From NCBI GenBank assembly GCA_005787565.1, contig SYAP01000298.1, positions 1-34,292 of the forward strand: a DNA stretch of 34,292 nt, given 5' to 3'. This stretch comes from Verrucomicrobiaceae bacterium (GTDB lineage Bacteria; Verrucomicrobiota; Verrucomicrobiia; Verrucomicrobiales; Akkermansiaceae). How positions within the stretch are numbered: position 1 is the first letter of the stretch; every line of letters begins with the position of its first letter. This document shows, one piece after another, positions 26,000 to 33,748 of this stretch. The notes beneath the pieces were generated by a model. That model was not told where the DNA came from. It made no database searches and saw nothing but the letters and a program-made list of their open reading frames with translations. The position numbers were made by a program, and so were the translations under genes.

Positions 26000-26194
26000 G
26001 ATGTTTTTTGGGTGATTCAAGCCCCTTGTTGTTTGAACTTGTTTAATCGGCTGAAAATGAATTTGTTGAGTATTTAAGTTAATCTTGGCATGGAGGTAGC
26101 GGATGGGATTGCCGGATGAAGTCAGAAAAATGCGAAGCACGAACCGACCTTCCATGGTCAAGTGAAGGGGTCGTGATCCGCTTTGCTGACGGAC

Positions 26195-26331
26195 GGAGGT
26201 ACCATGTGGGTCCGAGACTTTCAATGAGGATCAGGCGAGGGCATCACCTGAGAGTCCGCGTGCATCGGTGTTGTCCATTCTTGATCGTGTGGTGTCGTTG
26301 TGTGCAAGGGAACGGAAGGACTCTTAGTCCT
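26195..26331 (+). promoter_or_regulatory. Attenuator-like leader with short ORF and alternative stems
   Basis: GGAGG (26195-26199) stands four bases before ATG at 26204, opening a seven-codon frame MWVRDFQ that stops at 26225-26227. Four segments can pair in mutually exclusive ways: GACTTTCA (26216-26223) with TGAGAGTC (26249-26256); AGAGTCC (26251-26257) with GGACTCT (26318-26324); AGGACT (26317-26322) with AGTCCT (26326-26331). The last stem ends ten bases before the ATG at 26341. Function is inferred from layout only. Confidence 0.4.
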
Positions 26332-26340
26332 GTCACTGGA

Positions 26341-27195
26341 ATGAAGGAGAGTAAAAATTCTAAAAAAGCTGCGCCCGATCTGGTGATCAGACTGGTTCCT
26401 GAGTTGTTTGACAAGGGCGCCGATCTTGGTGATTTCGATGAGGATCTGCACGGAGAGATTGATGATTATGAATTGTATCCGGCAGGCTCCCCGAAATCGG
26501 TTCCTATTGCATTCGGTAGAAGCGCTTCAGCGTTTGCGACAAACCAATCCACTTTTCCAGAGTCCAAAGCAAAAAGAAGTTCACCAAGTGGTTTGAACTG
26601 TAGTCCCGCCGTGCGCAGGCGAATCATGCAGGAGATCCGAAATGGTGAGTATGACGAGACCCTTGTTTTCAATTTCCTTAATGGTCTTGTTCCAGGGACT
26701 CCGGAATTCAACGCAGCCTATGTGAATGCCCGAATCAAGCAATACGGTGAACAGAGTCGTCCAGATGCCGTGAACTGTCTGAAAGCGGAAGAGCCGTATC
26801 AGGGGTTGACCATTGACGAGGAGTTCGGGGTCACGAAGCCCAAGGAGGTCCATTCCGTGGACGAGAGATTGCTGCTCAGAAATCCGTGGGTGATCCGGTC
26901 CTTTCGAGATGTGGAAGCGATCTTCGGACTCGGATTCTGGGTGTGGATCCTCCTGCAGTTAGGGTCCGAGATCAGTCTGGTGTGGGCGTTGGTTGATCAG
27001 TTTTATCTGAAGGCGACCCTTGTGGTTCCGGTTGTGATCGGACTCTATCTGGCTGCGGACCTGGTTCTTTGGGCGCGGATACGGATGAGAGTTTATCATC
27101 ATGCGGTCAGGCCAGCGCTGCTAGTGTTGGCAGGCGGCGCTCTCATTCCTGCGGCCCTATGGCTCAGCGTTATCCTTTGGGAGGTGAAGATTTAA
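26341..27195 (+). CDS. Hypothetical membrane protein with three C-terminal helices
   Basis: I do not recognise this 284-residue protein. The N-terminal half is hydrophilic, starting MKESKNSKKAAPDLVIRLVP, then an acidic stretch (LGDFDEDLHGEIDDYELYP), a Ser-rich region and a helical segment (SPAVRRRIMQEIRNGEYDETLVFNFLNG). The C-terminal third holds three hydrophobic segments: about residues 193-220 (GFWVWILLQLGSEISLVW), 226-246 (ATLVVPVVIGLYLAADLVLW) and 259-281 (PALLVLAGGALIPAALWLSVIL). It is therefore probably an inner-membrane protein with a cytoplasmic N-terminal domain. The frame stays open back to 26116; the ATG at 26341 is chosen because upstream codons look non-coding. The next gene starts seven bases later. 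It is the first of a tight five-gene cluster of unknown function. Confidence 0.72.
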   Translation: MKESKNSKKAAPDLVIRLVPELFDKGADLGDFDEDLHGEIDDYELYPAGSPKSVPIAFGRSASAFATNQSTFPESKAKRSSPSGLNCSPAVRRRIMQEIRNGEYDETLVFNFLNGLVPGTPEFNAAYVNARIKQYGEQSRPDAVNCLKAEEPYQGLTIDEEFGVTKPKEVHSVDERLLLRNPWVIRSFRDVEAIFGLGFWVWILLQLGSEISLVWALVDQFYLKATLVVPVVIGLYLAADLVLWARIRMRVYHHAVRPALLVLAGGALIPAALWLSVILWEVKI

Positions 27196-27202
27196 TCCGG
27201 CG

Positions 27203-27676
27203 ATGAGTGATCGAATTCGAATGAAGAATTTCATGAGGAGCCTTGAAGAGCTGGGCGATTTTGAATCGATCGCCAGCAAGTTCCTCGAATTGGCGACTCC
27301 CTTCGAGGGGGTGGTTTCCCCTAGCAAAGTGGAGGATCTCGGGTTTCTGGTGGCATTTTGCAATCATTTCCGCATGCCTTTGGCGGAGATGTATTGGGAA
27401 GGTGAAGGGGAGGTTGACATGCAGGTGATGGCTTGGCTTGCGGATGTGGCAACGGTGCCGACCTCGATCCTGTATAGTCCAAGCTCCGGATTGCGACAGG
27501 CTTTGGGGCCGTTTGTGATGCGTTTCGGCATGATGCCCCGGAGCAAGTACGATTTATTCATCCGTCCGGGGGTGGTGCCCGAAGATGAGTCCATTGAAGA
27601 GGTTCCCTCGCACAAGTGGGCGACCAACGTTGTTGTGGACTTCAGAATGTTGAACGCAGCGTCGAATCCATCATGA
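27203..27676 (+). CDS. Hypothetical soluble protein
   Basis: I do not recognise this 157-residue protein. It starts MSDRIRMKNFMRSLEELGDF and is predicted soluble, with mixed helix and strand: FLELATPFEGVVSP, then LGFLVAFCNHFRMPLAEMYW (amphipathic), ending VVVDFRMLNAASNPS. There are no cysteine clusters, signal peptide or Walker motifs. It begins seven bases after the membrane-protein gene, and its TGA stop overlaps the ATG of the next small gene (ATGA), which supports translational coupling and argues that both are genuine. It could act with the membrane protein, since the two are always next to each other here, but that is inference from position. Confidence 0.68.
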   Translation: MSDRIRMKNFMRSLEELGDFESIASKFLELATPFEGVVSPSKVEDLGFLVAFCNHFRMPLAEMYWEGEGEVDMQVMAWLADVATVPTSILYSPSSGLRQALGPFVMRFGMMPRSKYDLFIRPGVVPEDESIEEVPSHKWATNVVVDFRMLNAASNPS

Positions 27677-27813
27677 ATTTCTACCAATTTCGCCGAATTG
27701 CCGTTCTTCTTTGTCTTCTTCATGCTGTGGAGAGGCTCAGGGCGGAGGATTTGAGCGAGCCACGAATGACTTTCCCGATCACAGGCAACATCAGAAATCC
27801 AAGTTATGAATGA
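27673..27813 (+). CDS. Small exported peptide (46 residues), hypothetical
   Basis: This gene starts inside the stop codon of the previous one (ATGA) and its own end overlaps the start of the helix-turn-helix gene by eight bases, which is good evidence that it is real despite its size. The N-terminus, MNFYQFRRIAVLLCLLHAVE, is Arg/Arg plus a short hydrophobic run, like a secretion signal; the cysteine at residue 15 (LLCLL) does not sit in a standard lipobox. The mature part would be only about 22 polar residues (EDLSEPRMTFPITGNIRN). It could be a secreted signal, a membrane-associated peptide or a remnant. No homologue comes to mind. Confidence 0.55.
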   Translation: MNFYQFRRIAVLLCLLHAVERLRAEDLSEPRMTFPITGNIRNPSYE

Positions 27814-28273
27814 ACCATCCGAAGAGCAAGATAAGTGGTTGGCTTTGCAGCGTGCTTTGGAAAGCCAGGTTGACCTTTCCGGTGATGAGATCGGAGGGAA
27901 GGAGATTGCGGGCAAGAGAGTCAGACATAGCCCAAGGGTGAAATTGATGTGTGTGATGGAAGCGCTTAAGAACGAGAAGCGGCAGGTGGATATCGCAAAG
28001 ATATACGGGGTTTCCCCGCCCTTGGTGAGCATTTGGAAGAAGCGCGCGCTTGAGGGAATCGTTTTCGCCCTGACCAACCAGACGAAGATCCCGATGATGC
28101 CGGTGGCATCGTTCGGAGGGGATATTCTGGAGGTGGAAGACGTGATCCGTCCGGAGCCAACGAAGTCTCCAGAGCGTGTCTCCAATGGAGAGGGGAATGT
28201 GGGATCGATCCATCCGGAGATCATCCAGTGGATGAAGCAGATTGAGGGCCGGTTGTCCAAGTTGGCGATTTGA
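27806..28273 (+). CDS. Helix-turn-helix protein, transposase-OrfA-like DNA-binding domain
   Basis: A 155-residue protein with a helix-turn-helix at about residues 44-83: RVKLMCVMEALKNEKRQVDI, then AKIYGVSPPLVSIWKKRALEG, the pattern of IS3 OrfA and related homeodomain-like domains (helix 2 with Q-x-x-IA, helix 3 with VS-x-W). The remainder is polar, without a DDE nuclease, and ends in an amphipathic helix (EIIQWMKQIEGRLSKLAI) that could dimerise. With no second transposase frame after it and no inverted repeats, domestication as a regulator is more likely than an active insertion sequence. It overlaps the small exported-peptide gene by eight bases and is followed by the last gene of the cluster. 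Confidence 0.68.
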   Translation: MNEPSEEQDKWLALQRALESQVDLSGDEIGGKEIAGKRVRHSPRVKLMCVMEALKNEKRQVDIAKIYGVSPPLVSIWKKRALEGIVFALTNQTKIPMMPVASFGGDILEVEDVIRPEPTKSPERVSNGEGNVGSIHPEIIQWMKQIEGRLSKLAI

Positions 28274-28296
28274 GAACGAACCAGACCAAAGAGATT

Positions 28297-28791
28297 ATGA
28301 TTTCACCCGACCAACGGATGAAAGCCTGTAAGGGGGCACACCAGGATCCGGAAGGAGTTTTACAAGACTCCCTCCGGGTCCACAGGGTTGGTATGGGTAT
28401 GATTTCCACCATGGGACCCGGGGGGGAAAGCATGGTGGATGCCGGCCGTCAACGGCTGGCAAAGGCGGAGGTGCGGAGCGCTGTGCCCGTGCCTCCGCCT
28501 ACACTTTCAGCGGAGTTTGGACTGTCCGGGCGGAGCCATGGCATGAGGTTTCCTCCAGCCATGCCCGTGATGAGGACGGATGCCATGATTGAAGGCAAGG
28601 GAGAAGGATTGGCGGTTTCCGAGGAGCGGAGGAAGGCGGATTTGTTGATCGAGGCACTGACTGGGGTTGATCCCTCCTTCGGGGAGAAACGGGGGGTGAG
28701 TCCATTCACTTTCGTGATGTGGAGATCACGGGCAGTGATGGCCATTCTGAAGGAGTTCAGAGATTGGGATGAGAAGCCCGCTGGTTGGTGA
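28297..28791 (+). CDS. Hypothetical protein, last gene of the orphan cluster
   Basis: I do not recognise this protein (164 residues from ATG 28297; a TTG at 28270 that overlaps the previous stop as TTGA would add nine residues). The first two thirds are low complexity, rich in Gly, Met, Pro and Arg, and lie over a run of strong RNA hairpins, so their translation is doubtful. The last 75 residues look like an ordinary folded domain: SEERRKADLLIEALTGVDPS, then FGEKRGVSPFTFVMWRSRAV and an aromatic end (FRDWDEKPAGW). An in-frame ATG at 28570, just past the hairpins, would give a 73-residue protein containing only that domain. It ends 63 bases before the convergent stop of the kinase gene. Confidence 0.5.
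   Translation: MISPDQRMKACKGAHQDPEGVLQDSLRVHRVGMGMISTMGPGGESMVDAGRQRLAKAEVRSAVPVPPPTLSAEFGLSGRSHGMRFPPAMPVMRTDAMIEGKGEGLAVSEERRKADLLIEALTGVDPSFGEKRGVSPFTFVMWRSRAVMAILKEFRDWDEKPAGW
28344..28563. repeat. Run of five consecutive imperfect hairpins
   Basis: Arms: (i) GGATCCGGAAGGAGT 28344-28358 with ACTCCCTCCGGGTCC 28367-28381; (ii) TCCACCATG 28405-28413 with CATGGTGGA 28431-28439; (iii) GCCGGCCG 28441-28448 with CGGCTGGC 28453-28460; (iv) AGGCGGAGGTGC 28463-28474 with GTGCCTCCGCCT 28489-28500; (v) CATGGCATGAGG 28537-28548 with CCTCCAGCCATG 28552-28563. Most imperfections are G-U wobbles when read as RNA. The right arm of (i) could instead pair with GGACCCGGGGGG (28414-28425) in the loop of (ii). 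Confidence 0.65.
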
Positions 28792-28854: not shown

Positions 28855-31119
28855 TCAAGCGGGGAGTCCTGCCAAACGAGCAACATTGGCCTCGATGACC
28901 TTGTCGAGCATGAGAATGTCGATGGGTTTTGTTAGGTAGTCGTCCATTCCGGCCTGGATGGCTTCGTCCCGTGCCTCATTGAAGGCGTGGGCCGAGAGGC
29001 CGATGATCCGGGTGGGACGGGTGTTTTTCGAGCGTTCAAGGTTTCTGACCCTCCGAGTGACCTCAAGTCCATCGAGGCCGGGCATTTCGACATCCATGAA
29101 CACGAGATCGAAAGGATTCCTGCGCAGTTCCGCCAGAGCGTCCGATCCGTTGGTTGTGATGGTTGTGTCACAGGATCGTTGCTCTAGGAGGATTTTCAGC
29201 AGTTGGCTGTTCGTTTCGTTGTCTTCAGCGATCAAGACATTGAATTTCGGGCGAGGTTGCTGGGGTCCTGAAGGCTGGAGAGTGGTGCTTTCCAGGGTGG
29301 GGCGGTGAGGGGATGGATCGACCGATCGTGGCAAAGCGCCGTGCGGGATTTGAGCCGTGGTTTGTGCCGGTTGTATGGTTTGTTCCAAGGTTGAAGTGGT
29401 TGATACCGGTATAGAGAAGCTGAACACGCTTCCGACGCCGGTGCGTGACCGGACCTGAATGGTTCCGCCCATCATTTCGATCAAGCGGCGGCAGATTGCG
29501 AGTCCCAGACCTGTTCCGCCGTAATTTCGAGAAGTGGAGTCGTCGACCTGAGAGAAGGGAGCAAAGAGGTTGTCGATCTTGTCCTGGGGGATTCCGATGC
29601 CAGTGTCAGCGACTTCGAAATGGAGGATGGTTGATTCTCCGTGGGTTTCCGAGCTCAGGTTGAGGGACACGGAGCCTGACTCGGTGAATTTGATTCCGTT
29701 TCCCACGAGGTTGTAGAGGACCTGGCGGAGTCTTCCGCTGTCTCCAACAACGGACTGAGGAAAGATTGGGTCGATCTGGATGGACAGATCGATTTTCCGT
29801 TCATCGGCCGCAGTTTGGAGCATATCGACCACCTCGTTGGCGCAACGGATTGCGGAGAAACTCTCTTTCCTGATGGTAACGGTGCCTGATTCGATTTTGG
29901 AGAAGTCGAGAATGTCATTGAGAATGGTCAACAGGTGATCGCCGCTGTTTCTGATGATATTGACGTGATTCCGCTGTTCCGGAGAGAGTTGTGATGTCAT
30001 CAGCAGGTTGGCATAGCCGAGCACACCGTTGAGAGGAGTCCGGATTTCGTGACTCATGGTTGTGACGAACTCGCTTTTCGCACGGTCCGCCATCTCAGCG
30101 CGTTCTCGGGCGGCTGCCTGTTCCCGTTCGGAATCTCGGACCTTCCGGACGTGGACGGAGAACCAAGACGCAAGCCATGTTAGAGAGCCGAGGAAAGTGA
30201 GTCCGAGAAAGGTGGCGAGGCGGTAGAGGCTTGCGAGGTGCACCTCGCGGTCGGTGGAGAAGACGAGCCCCATGCTTTCACCGCCGAGGTTGAGAGGAGT
30301 GTAGACACTGATTACCTTGCGAGTCGAAGGGGTGTGGATATCATGTTCCATCATTCCTTCGAGGCCGTTTTCAAGGTTGGAAGAGATTTCGTTGAGGACG
30401 GAAGGATGGACATGGAATTGTTGGATGGTGAAATTGGACGGGTGGTGAATGAGTTCGGGGATCCGGTTTTGTTCGATGGACCAGATCCAGAGTTCGGATT
30501 GGCCCATGAGGTAGGTTGCAAGCCGGTCGCTGAAGAACTTGCTGTGGTCGACGCGAAGTCTAACATTCCGAATTCTGCTGTGGGCGCCGATAGGGATTTC
30601 CTCGTGAAGGATCAACTGGTCCAACGAGTGCGTGACGGTAGAAGGAGAGGAATGGAGGGCATGGTGTTGGTCATCGATGAGCGGGAGGGTCCTCAAGTAG
30701 TTTCCGGGAAGGAGCTGGATGCTCAAACGAGTGCCGTCGGACTGTTCAAGATCGATTTGATCGATCATTTCCTGATATCTCGCAAAGAAGCGTTTGACCA
30801 AAGCGACGTCGCGGGAGGTTGTAGGCGAATCATCCGAGAAGGCGTCGAAAGCCTCGGTTGAGACGAGGACCCTGAAGTCATCGCGCATTGCGTCGAACTG
30901 GGTTTCGAGGCTACGGGAGGCACCTGCGGCCTGGGAGACGAGATTATCCGCAGCCGACTCGACATCGAGCTTCATGATCCGGATGGACAGAATGACCGCG
31001 AGGACCTGAAAAAGGAAGAAAAGGAGGAGGATCCAATTGTAGAAGATCTTGGTCGATTTTCCTACCTGCGTGGTGGTTTGTGGTTGGGGGGGTGAGTTTT
31101 CATCGTTGCTTGGTTTCAT
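28855..31119 (-). CDS. Membrane-bound hybrid histidine kinase with receiver domain
   Basis: A 754-residue sensor kinase. Order: TM helix about 25-49 (NWILLLFFLFQVLAVILSI); a 250-residue extracytoplasmic sensor of unknown ligand; a second TM helix about 297-321 (LATFLGLTFLGSLTWLASW); a short coiled coil (EREQAAARERAEMADRAKSE); a HisKA domain with phospho-acceptor His357 in SHEIRTPLNG; an HATPase with N box NLVGNGIKF, G1 DTGIGIPQD and G2 GGTGLGLAICRRLIEMMGG; a Pro/Gln-rich linker; and a receiver domain with phospho-acceptor Asp676 in VFMDVEMPG, Thr/Ser at LSAH and Lys in YLTKP. All catalytic residues are present. The ATG overlaps the TGA of the upstream Cache lipoprotein gene (ATGA); an in-frame ATG 10 codons earlier is the alternative. 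There is no DNA-binding output, so it needs a downstream partner. Confidence 0.94.
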   Translation of the reverse strand: MKPSNDENSPPQPQTTTQVGKSTKIFYNWILLLFFLFQVLAVILSIRIMKLDVESAADNLVSQAAGASRSLETQFDAMRDDFRVLVSTEAFDAFSDDSPTTSRDVALVKRFFARYQEMIDQIDLEQSDGTRLSIQLLPGNYLRTLPLIDDQHHALHSSPSTVTHSLDQLILHEEIPIGAHSRIRNVRLRVDHSKFFSDRLATYLMGQSELWIWSIEQNRIPELIHHPSNFTIQQFHVHPSVLNEISSNLENGLEGMMEHDIHTPSTRKVISVYTPLNLGGESMGLVFSTDREVHLASLYRLATFLGLTFLGSLTWLASWFSVHVRKVRDSEREQAAARERAEMADRAKSEFVTTMSHEIRTPLNGVLGYANLLMTSQLSPEQRNHVNIIRNSGDHLLTILNDILDFSKIESGTVTIRKESFSAIRCANEVVDMLQTAADERKIDLSIQIDPIFPQSVVGDSGRLRQVLYNLVGNGIKFTESGSVSLNLSSETHGESTILHFEVADTGIGIPQDKIDNLFAPFSQVDDSTSRNYGGTGLGLAICRRLIEMMGGTIQVRSRTGVGSVFSFSIPVSTTSTLEQTIQPAQTTAQIPHGALPRSVDPSPHRPTLESTTLQPSGPQQPRPKFNVLIAEDNETNSQLLKILLEQRSCDTTITTNGSDALAELRRNPFDLVFMDVEMPGLDGLEVTRRVRNLERSKNTRPTRIIGLSAHAFNEARDEAIQAGMDDYLTKPIDILMLDKVIEANVARLAGLPA

Positions 31120-32156
31120 GGATTTCGGTGGAACTCCATCAGTTTCCAATTGAGATTCGGGATTGGTGTTGCGATGACCTTCCAGCTGTCCGGGTCAGAA
31201 TCGAGGGTTGAAGAGGGCAGGTTGTTGATCAGGAGCTGGGTTGCCATGGTGCGAACCGCCTGAGATCTGCTATGGAGCATGTTGTAGTCCGACGAGCGGA
31301 AAGTGTCCGAACGAACCGTATCGACATAGCGGTGGGATTTGAGATCGGGGAGTCTGAGGATTCTCATGAGAGGTTCGCCTGTTGCGACGACTGTGCCGGC
31401 CGGGGAGACGAGGATGCAGAAGCGGTTCCGGTTTTCGAAATCGAATGTGCGGATGATGGATTCGACGGTGATATCGAGGCCCGGGACACCGACGAGTTGG
31501 CCCTGATGATAGACCGGGGCGATGCAGGAGATCATCCAACCGCGCCCGGCAGGGTCGACATAGGGTTCGTTGACCCAGACGGCGCGTTTTTCGGGATTGT
31601 GTTTTTCGTCAGCGAGGTAGTAGAAATTGTATGCGGGAATGTCCATTCCCGGGGGGTATTGGGGAAGGACGTCGAAGGGTGGATAGATGCGGTTGTAGCT
31701 GTGTTTGTCATTGTAGTAGGCTTGAACGACGGCGGTGCCTACGGCCCGGGTCAGGAGGGGATCGATGGCTTCGGTTCCAAGGACCACGTTCCAGACCGAT
31801 TCAGTGACGGGGACGACGCCCGAGACGAAGACCGCGGGCAAATTGTTTTTGACGGCACCCGGGCGGTGCAGGACGCCATTCGGTCTGAGTTCGTATTGCG
31901 AGCGGTCGGCAGAGCGAGCCCGTTCATCGAGGTCCGGGTAGAGTGCGGTGATTTGGGTGGCAAGTTCCTGCGTTATTTTCTCGGTTTCGAGTAGTTCGTG
32001 TGTGATCGATTGCGCCATGGCTTCGAGAGCTGCGCGATTTCGAGCAACTTCCTTTGCGTTAGAATCGTTTTGGTTGCAAGAGGTGGCGAGGATTGCGGCA
32101 GAGGTGAATGCGACCCAGCTCAAGGAGCTGAGTTTGGTTGACGGGAGTGCGTGCAT
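31116..32156 (-). CDS. Cache-type sensor lipoprotein, partner of the hybrid kinase
   Basis: The 346 residues start MHALPSTKLSSLSWVAFTSA and continue AILATSC, so a lipobox-like cysteine at 27 probably carries a lipid anchor; this is why ATG 32156 is chosen rather than the longer frame from 32249. The mature protein is a double-Cache (PDC-like) sensor: ALYPDLDERARSADRSQYEL, VFVSGVVPVTESVWNVVLGTE, YPPGMDIPAYNFYYLADEKHNP, VNEPYVDPAGRGWMISCIAP, then VPGLDITVESIIRTFDF and ILVSPAGTVVATGEPLM. Cache domains bind small ligands outside the cell, and here the domain has no transmembrane kinase attached. It overlaps the start of the hybrid kinase, so a ligand-loaded lipoprotein that talks to that kinase is a reasonable but unproven model. 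Confidence 0.84.
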   Translation of the reverse strand: MHALPSTKLSSLSWVAFTSAAILATSCNQNDSNAKEVARNRAALEAMAQSITHELLETEKITQELATQITALYPDLDERARSADRSQYELRPNGVLHRPGAVKNNLPAVFVSGVVPVTESVWNVVLGTEAIDPLLTRAVGTAVVQAYYNDKHSYNRIYPPFDVLPQYPPGMDIPAYNFYYLADEKHNPEKRAVWVNEPYVDPAGRGWMISCIAPVYHQGQLVGVPGLDITVESIIRTFDFENRNRFCILVSPAGTVVATGEPLMRILRLPDLKSHRYVDTVRSDTFRSSDYNMLHSRSQAVRTMATQLLINNLPSSTLDSDPDSWKVIATPIPNLNWKLMEFHRNP

Positions 32157-32179
32157 GAATGGGGGGATAGAGGGTTGTC

Positions 32180-32575
32180 TTATTCGTTTGCGATCCTCTT
32201 GGCCGGGATCGGGCCCGAAGTGCTGGCGGAGAGGGTTTTCATGACCCATTCTTCGAGGGTCAAGCCTTCCGCCAGAGCGGCTTTGGAGTAGGCGCGGAAG
32301 CGGTCGAGATCGATTTCGATCGAGAAGATCTGGCTGGGTGATGGGGATCTGGGAGGAATCGGGAGGGTGTGTGTTGTGGAGTTTTCCGGGTGGGCATTGG
32401 ACATGATTTGCTCGAGGAGCCTCAGGGTCTTTGCGGGAAGGGGGAGGGGGGTGGAGAGCCAGTTATCGACGGTCCGTTTGCTGACGTTGCAAGCGCGGGC
32501 AAGCCAATTGCGGTCGAGGCGATGTTGTTTGAGCCAAAGTTTGACTTTGAGTTTGTTTTGCTCGTCCGGGCTCAT
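32180..32575 (-). CDS. Helix-turn-helix regulator at the head of the sensor operon
   Basis: A 131-residue protein starting MSPDEQNKLKVKLWLKQHRL; a TTG 10 codons upstream is possible but weaker. The helix-turn-helix lies around residues 20-45 (DRNWLARACNVSKRTVDNWL), a XRE/phage-repressor-like pattern. A Pro/Ser-rich linker (TLPIPPRSPSPS) follows, then a second segment, FSIEIDLDRFRAYSKAALAEG and LTLEEWVMKTLS, which resembles ribbon-helix-helix or phage-type dimerisation motifs. It is the first gene of the leftward set, 23 bases before the Cache lipoprotein, so all three genes are likely one transcript. An inverted repeat 32-54 bases upstream of its start would suit autoregulation. It is not a response regulator (no receiver domain). 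Confidence 0.82.
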   Translation of the reverse strand: MSPDEQNKLKVKLWLKQHRLDRNWLARACNVSKRTVDNWLSTPLPLPAKTLRLLEQIMSNAHPENSTTHTLPIPPRSPSPSQIFSIEIDLDRFRAYSKAALAEGLTLEEWVMKTLSASTSGPIPAKRIANE

Positions 32576-32629: not shown

Positions 32630-33001
32630 ACCATCAAAAACGTAGATTTTATTGCGATGGTTGCATTTGGAGGAAGAGGGGAAGGGATTGTGTGAAATGG
32701 TTGCGCAGGCGAGAGATTGTGGTGACTTGGAGTGTGTGTGAAATCCGAATGGTCGAAAGCGGACGATGGGAGTTGGTGGGGGGGGATGGGTTGGGCGGTT
32801 TGGTTTTCGCGCGGGGGCTTTCGGATGGAAGTGAGTCCGGATGATTCCACCGAATGCATCAATCTGACGGCAGAGGATTGGTTTGGCTGACGGCGGATGA
32901 TCAGGCCGGGCATGCGGCGAGCCTAGAGCAGTGCGGCCGAAGGTTTGACGATGGTGGCGGATGCCCAAGCGAGGGAGTTTGGAGTGGGATGCGGCAAGAA
33001 A
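32630..33001. other. Intergenic region with no recognised gene
   Basis: Between the helix-turn-helix promoter and the terminator of the PEP-CTERM gene. Some frames are open for 60-140 codons, but their proteins are low in known motifs and their codon use is unlike the neighbours. Left of 32690 it is A/T-rich; the rest is GC-rich. No RNA gene or repeat is seen. Confidence 0.5.
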
Positions 33002-33036
33002 ACAACGTTTGCCCCCGAAGGGGGGGCAAACGTTGT
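33002..33036 (-). terminator. Strong intrinsic terminator after the first PEP-CTERM gene
   Basis: ACAACGTTTGCCCCC (33002-33016) and its perfect complement (33022-33036) form a 15-bp stem with a five-base loop, 37 bases past the stop of the leftward gene. On the leftward transcript it is followed by TTTTCTTG. It is the strongest hairpin in the window. Confidence 0.9.
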
Positions 33037-33073
33037 GGTTGATTTGCAAGATGGACCAGGTGGGAGGAGACGG

Positions 33074-33748
33074 TCAGCGACGCCGGCGTCGGAGAGCAGG
33101 AAGGCATGCGAGTGACGCGAGAAGAGGGATGGATGGTTCAGGGATGAGAGTGCCGCCGATTTCAATCGGCCGATTGACGTAGAAGAAATCAGAGCTGCTA
33201 TTGTTGGAGGAGATGAAGTTGAGGGTGAGAGTCTCTCCTGCCAGGTGAGCGAGGGATTCGGGGGTGAAGATGACGGGTTCCCACACGGAGGTTTGGGAGT
33301 AGGTGAAGACGACGCTTCCGGAGCTATCGATCAAAGCGATTCCGGCCCATCCGGTGGGGCTTTTGGAAGGGTTGACAGATGCGGTTGAGAGTGGAGGCGG
33401 CTCGGAGTTTTCCATGAGATAGATTTGGCTGATGGAAATGGAGCCACCGGGACTGAGGACGAATTCCGGAGATTGGAGCCAGACGGTGGTCGTGGGGTGA
33501 CTGAAGCCCCTGAAATCCCCGTTGGCATCGATTTGGACGAGATTTGTGACATCGGGCTGGAGGTCGGACCAGGTTGAGGAGAAACTGCGTTCGTGCCATC
33601 CACCGAGAGATTGGGACCGTGAGTAGAGGAGGGTGGATGCGTGTGACGGGGATGTGAGGTTGAGGAGTGTTAGTCCCACGAGGGCAGAGGTGGCGAAGGA
33701 AGGAGGGAGAAGGAGGGGACGTTTATTGATTGATAGATTGATCTTCAT
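33074..33748 (-). CDS. PEP-CTERM sorting-domain protein
   Basis: A 224-residue exported protein. The N-terminus has a basic start (MKINLSINKRPLLLPPS), a hydrophobic stretch (ATSALVGLTLLNL) and a likely cleavage site near SHA-STLLY. The middle is beta-rich and Ser/Thr-rich, with GWHERSFSSTWSDLQPDV, LQSPEFVLSPGGSISISQIYLM and GWAGIALIDSSGSVVFTYS, unlike any family I can name. The C-terminus IPEPSIPLLASLACLPALRR followed by Arg is a PEP-CTERM signal: PEP motif, hydrophobic helix and basic tail, which exosortase recognises for delivery to the cell surface or matrix. No exosortase gene is in the window. A strong terminator follows, so it is probably a single-gene transcript. Confidence 0.87.
   Translation of the reverse strand: MKINLSINKRPLLLPPSFATSALVGLTLLNLTSPSHASTLLYSRSQSLGGWHERSFSSTWSDLQPDVTNLVQIDANGDFRGFSHPTTTVWLQSPEFVLSPGGSISISQIYLMENSEPPPLSTASVNPSKSPTGWAGIALIDSSGSVVFTYSQTSVWEPVIFTPESLAHLAGETLTLNFISSNNSSSDFFYVNRPIEIGGTLIPEPSIPLLASLACLPALRRRRR

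Follow-up and report, generated by a model that had tools for sequence, protein, structure and literature searches.

The five hairpins at 28,344–28,563 of the window (the whole stretch of DNA that was analysed, a 34,292-nucleotide contig of a Verrucomicrobiaceae bacterium) raise the question of whether this sequence works as protein-coding DNA, as RNA, or as a DNA-level element. The original prediction placed them inside a nominally open frame and offered a structured RNA, a recombination or cruciform element, or a mobile palindromic repeat as alternatives to coding sequence. We conclude, with a probability of about 0.9, that the hairpins are one copy of a structured RNA family not catalogued previously. 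The stretch is probably a small regulatory RNA rather than protein-coding, since the same architecture recurs in related Verrucomicrobiota with its stems replaced, often beside genes for nitric-oxide synthase (NOS) and sensor kinases. Literature searches, which were limited, gave no matching description of such an RNA, and no covariance model of Rfam 15 scored above its gathering threshold in the window, with the element region and its G002 copy (see below) scoring no better than chance (element E value 0.26 or worse).

The hairpin array and its limits

All five successive inverted repeats lie where they had been predicted, and 28,344–28,563 folds with a minimum free energy of -120.7 kcal/mol against -89.2 ± 4.6 kcal/mol for 200 dinucleotide shuffles (z -6.9), none of which was as good. 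A fold scan of the 34-kb window ranks this stretch first on either strand, and it is the strongest of 4190 windows of 200 nt in 432 kb of host genome, with an excess of -40 kcal/mol compared to -29 kcal/mol for the runner-up outside the window. Second in the window comes a fold at 32,891–33,100, which spans a near-perfect 15-bp inverted repeat (ACAACGTTTGCCCCC-GAAGG-GGGGGCAAACGTTGT; 33,002–33,036) close to the end of a minus-strand ORF of 224 aa.

The true unit begins 5’ of the predicted array, at about 28,305–28,324, and stops at about 28,507. Thus delimited by its fold and by an architecture common to six other loci, the whole element occupies 28,305–28,507 of the + strand (core about 28,310–28,507), and the segment 28,310–28,510 folds with a z of -6.1. 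Its first part is a conserved 5’ motif, M1 (GCCTGTAAGGGGG; 28,324–28,336), recognized by its conservation and rarity, which is enclosed together with the long hairpin H1 (28,344–28,381) by an outer helix of ACCCGACCAAC with GTTGGTATGGGT. A GATTTCC flank and hairpin H2 follow (28,401–28,439; the hairpin itself is 28,405–28,439), with the H2 arms paired at 9/9 positions (100%) and a conserved loop, GGACCCGGGGGGGAAAG, in which motif M2 corresponds to 28,417–28,428. The short hairpin H3 (28,440–28,461) is found between H2 and H4 in 7/7 copies with unrelated sequences, and the terminal hairpin H4 (28,463–28,500), followed by ACACTTT, has homologous arms (consensus CAGCGGAGAG) that covary in seven copies. 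The fifth predicted hairpin, H5 (28,537–28,563), is the weakest of the five, has no counterpart in the relatives, and probably lies outside the element. The proposal that the right arm of H1 can pair alternatively with the H2 loop is correct for the window, where the pairing of 28,370–28,381 with 28,414–28,425 exists (12 nt, 92%; -30 kcal/mol, 0/300 shuffles as good), but it is no better than chance in the five relatives examined and so does not constitute a conserved switch.

Relatives of the element and their covariation

Five more genomes of the genus carry this architecture, at six loci in total (G060:C3, G060:C23, G002, G108, G001 and G109), in the shared order M1–H1–GATTTCC–H2–H3–H4 and with nearly all of the stem sequence replaced. 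All seven copies fold beyond chance (z -3.9 to -10.9), and the element measures ~200 nt in the window and 180–430 nt in its relatives. The clearest copies have CCCGGGGGGGAA (M2) as the G-rich loop of H2. M1 is exact in G060, G108 and G001 and has one mismatch in G002 and G109, and the long hairpin to its 3’ side is also seen in G060:C3, G002, G108 and G001; G060:C23 has a shorter one and G109 a weak one. There are exceptions to this pattern: G060:C23 has no clear M1 and a GACTTTC flank, G002 has a GATTTCT flank, G109 carries CATTTTCC, and the G-rich loop is in H4 and not H2 in G108, and in both hairpins in G001 and G109.

When the region was used as a DNA query against 59 related genomes, only the window itself was returned. 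The three founder copies (window, G002 and G060:C3) were chosen without any structural criterion. G002 was reached through a distant homologue of the helix-turn-helix (HTH) protein encoded upstream of the element, with a hairpin array (z -6.1) directly 3’ of the HTH gene, and G060 through a plain string search of its locus with two motifs common to the window and G002. A covariance model added two copies, one that has the full architecture (G060:C23, L082) and one that is a hairpin pair only (G072, L067), both of which are biased towards pairing because the model picked them. A search of NOS flanks added three more: an exact M1 string led to G108 and G001, and the H2 model plus M1 with one mismatch led to G109. 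Both motifs are rare: in 1.01 Mb of sequence not fetched by motif, M1 has four exact matches (0.06 expected), all within elements, and M2 has four (0.44 expected), three of them within elements; ~700 kb of this total consists of arbitrary contigs of G000 and G060, where there are zero exact M1 matches. A scan of genome contigs with the M1–M2 pair gave one match, in JAIXOR010000067.1 (a 104,002 bp Verrucomicrobiaceae bacterium MAG contig, equal in length to the G060 contig). Distant blastn comparison with phages gave no match, nor did searches of viral contigs with the frames or with the motif pair; M1 alone has four matches in viral contigs, which were rejected as unstructured (z -1.0 to +1.3).

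Among the three founders a near-identical H2 loop (G N A/T CCCGGGGGGGAA A/T G) is carried on stems that are wholly different. All nine H2 pairs show compensatory change, with 12 double-change cells and 92.6% of cells paired, compared with at most three compensatory pairs in controls with the registers slid by 1–3 columns, and the picture is the same in five copies that include G060:C23 and G072. In seven copies, double changes occur in 9/11 pairs of H4 and 6/7 pairs at the base of H2; the paired percentages of both (98.7% of cells for H4) are inflated because the arms were paired and aligned manually on the basis of predicted helices; the identity of loops and flanks is not affected. Pairing of H2 and H4 is 91–100% across the alignments, and slid-register controls fall far below the true registers. 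The covariation expected of a structured RNA is therefore found, with compensatory substitutions keeping the helices of H2, H4 and the H2 base. The asymmetry of G-U versus A-C pairs gave no information on the strand.

That the array is part of a coding gene, the 173-codon frame at 28,270–28,791, is very improbable. The frame and its in-frame ATG at 28,570 both exist as predicted, and in the window and in G060:C3 no stop interrupts it across the array, with M1 and M2 sharing one phase in both. However, the same-phase frame of G002 opens only 3’ of M1 and that of L067 closes immediately, M2 has zero synonymous changes in the five copies where it is intact, and coding statistics are weak across the array. 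Neither the window frame nor the G060:C3 frame has a protein-family match (those obtained for the latter are spurious), and the 73-aa C-terminal part (28,570–28,788) finds no relative among 98 related genomes and is thus an uncertain ORF. The open frame is not accompanied by protein-level conservation in the relatives. The broken frames together with the covariation support a structured RNA and not a coding sequence.

A DNA-level or mobile element (a cruciform, a recombination site or a REP-like repeat) is also unlikely. Both strands fold, the position and orientation of the element relative to neighbouring genes vary by locus, two contigs of G060 each carry a copy, and one and the same hairpin, CGGCAGACA-loop-TGTCTGCCG, stands at different loci of G026 and G021. 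Against this, a search for dispersed copies in the host genome (78% complete) found the array sequence once only, leaving a mobile palindromic repeat unsupported; the copies keep their loops and replace their stems, the opposite of REP families; and no recombinase or relaxase was recognized among the nearby proteins scanned. Terminators are found 3’ of H4 on one strand only, with a terminator scan revealing an intrinsic terminator in G060:C3 (GCCGC...GCGGC, AAACTTTTTT) and reading showing a T6 run after the hairpin in G108, and positive evidence for a recombination or cruciform element was not found. Other copies have weaker T runs, as does the window, in which the run after H4 (ACACTTT) is weak and the scan finds no + strand terminator.

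Single hairpins with related G-rich loops are found elsewhere in the family and class (G072, G026/G021, G243, G043/G050 and G726), and lone hairpins of this kind were excluded from membership; several are ordinary terminators or chance. The identical hairpins of G026 (L084:14,108–14,145) and G021 (L085:10,223–10,260), CGGCAGACA-ACCGGGGGGGAA-TGTCTGCCG, are each located 3’ of unrelated genes and are followed by more G-rich-loop hairpins. Weak covariance-model matches in the family and class were rejected: several (L064, L066, L069, L071, L077 and L081) look like coding sequence or chance, L110 is a palindrome at a contig end, and L111, L112 and L116 are apparently plain terminators. L006, with three internal stops, is an IS remnant and was rejected too. 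Further strong folds, in G060 and around NOS genes (L101, L104, L095, L107, L149, L150 and L154, for example), are repeats, long palindromes or folds within other genes and lack M1 and the H2 loop. The G060 loci L095, L101, L104 and L107 have extended inverted repeats, with GGCAGGGACCGATCCTCCGGGCGGTCC as an example of their arms and some of them multicopy, and these resemble a palindromic repeat family distinct from the element.

Gene neighbourhood and nitric oxide

The orphan cluster that precedes the element in the window opens with a 359-aa ORF (26,116–27,195) whose C-terminal part is hydrophobic by reading and which has no Pfam match. A 157-aa protein (27,203–27,676, + strand) belongs to an orphan family that a profile search detects in only 3/73 genomes of the genus (G000, G002 and G060), in each case adjoining a copy of the element. 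Directly upstream of the element is the gene for a 155-aa transposase-OrfA-like HTH protein (27,806–28,273, + strand; weak Pfam matches to HTH_23 and HTH_Tnp_1), a distant homologue of which is encoded directly 5’ of the G002 element. Convergent with the element is a hybrid histidine kinase identified by Pfam (28,855–31,149, minus strand), followed by a Cache-like sensor protein (31,116–32,249, minus strand; weak Pfam Cache match), and these are 57% and 63% identical, respectively, to proteins of the G060 element/NOS locus. The window has no NOS gene.

An NOS gene lies within about 0.2–6 kb of 5/7 copies (G060, G002, G108, G001 and G109), a fraction that is biased in that three copies came from the NOS-flank search, and FIST, hybrid-kinase, MarR or HTH genes also lie close to these copies. 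The G060 element is accompanied by genes for the NO synthase, the 157-aa protein, an Hpt protein and hybrid kinases, that of G002 by FIST, kinase, HTH and NOS genes, and those of G108 and G001 by kinase and MarR genes; the G109 element is just 3’ of NOS. Bacterial NO synthase (PF02898) is encoded in 28/73 genomes of the genus, with the host copy on contig C75, and several of these NOS loci adjoin FIST, hybrid-kinase and MarR genes. We viewed 27 of the 28 NOS neighbourhoods (five of them to only ±1.5 kb), and the element is present in five and absent from 22, so that the association is not a general one. The link of the element to nitric oxide is therefore suggestive.

Possible modes of action and known systems

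The evidence is about evenly balanced as to whether the element is a ~200-nt non-coding regulatory RNA of the nitric-oxide/two-component module, ended by H4. The mechanism we infer for such an RNA is that it would start around M1, with M1 and H1 folding into one domain, that H2 would then expose the C/G-rich loop CCCGGGGGGGAA, and that H4 would provide a terminator-like end. The + strand would be transcribed either from a promoter of its own or together with the upstream regulator gene, the element then forming the 3’ end of an mRNA that is released at H4. The RNA may act in trans on mRNAs of the nitric-oxide/two-component module through base-pairing of the loop or an RNA-binding protein. Such an exposed loop would be a natural candidate for pairing with target mRNAs, protein binding or dimerisation, the last being possible because CCCGGG is self-complementary. 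The only sigma-70-like site upstream in the window (28,270–28,298) is at chance level. The G060:C3 element has no + strand gene within 2.7 kb upstream and so needs its own promoter, a layout that favours an independent transcript.

Somewhat less likely, at roughly one chance in four by our reckoning, is that the tandem hairpins are a 3’-UTR or operon-end structure that terminates the upstream regulator mRNA and blocks 3’ exonucleases, with no role in trans. This is consistent with the terminator-like H4, with the same-strand regulator gene just 5’ of several copies (HTH in the window and G002, MarR in G108, AraC in G060:C23), and with the isolated G-rich-loop hairpins L111, L112 and L116 of other class members, which are intrinsic terminators by reading. 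The G060:C3 layout argues against it, and a mere terminator leaves the invariant M1, GATTTCC and M2 loop unexplained. A cis-acting riboswitch or leader was rejected, as there is no constant type of downstream gene: G002 has NOS at that position and G001 a 162-aa orphan, and the element faces a convergent kinase both in G060:C3 and, beyond the uncertain 73-aa frame, in the window. A bolder extension of the trans-acting reading, and a rather doubtful one, is that the family serves nitric-oxide signalling specifically in Verrucomicrobiota and is made under NOS/FIST/hybrid-kinase control. Its C3G7A2 loop would then be a recognition or kissing (CCCGGG) module, shared with lone hairpins and terminators throughout the class, and would point to a novel RNA-binding partner or a dimerisation mechanism.

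Regulatory RNAs of the Verrucomicrobiota appear to be little explored, and we found no RNA partner described in the literature for bacterial nitric-oxide synthase clusters. This small group of loci, with invariant loops and fully replaced stems, makes the element a clear and testable candidate. Nucleotide searches miss the relatives of such RNAs, which gene neighbourhood and short motifs can find.

Three known systems bear comparison. The element resembles REP/BIME sequences in its intergenic tandem inverted repeats of 20–40 nt, but these would be expected in many near-identical copies, and the element has a single host copy and conserves loops, not stems, between copies. RNAs of the CsrB/RsmZ type sequester CsrA and are under hybrid-kinase control, and the element likewise is a multi-hairpin RNA adjoining hybrid histidine kinases with a GGA in its M2 loop; however, by reading of the fold the window copy has one GGA-bearing loop (H2) and no array of ANGGA loops, and a CsrA sponge was rejected for this reason. 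The third comparison is with the UCCC-loop trans-acting sRNAs under two-component systems, LhrC of Listeria and RsaE, RNAIII and SprD of S. aureus, of which LhrC and RsaE base-pair with target mRNAs through their UCCC loops (PMC4132741). The element resembles these in a series of hairpins that includes a terminator-like one, a conserved C-containing loop motif and a two-component association, but differs in that its loop is UCCC or ACCC followed by six to eight G residues, its stems are GC-rich, and its phylum is Verrucomicrobiota. UCCC is present in most copies, in the H2 loops of G060:C3, G002 and G060:C23 and in H4 of G108 and G001, with ACCC in the window, and the CCC of the loop may pair with the GGG that follows it.
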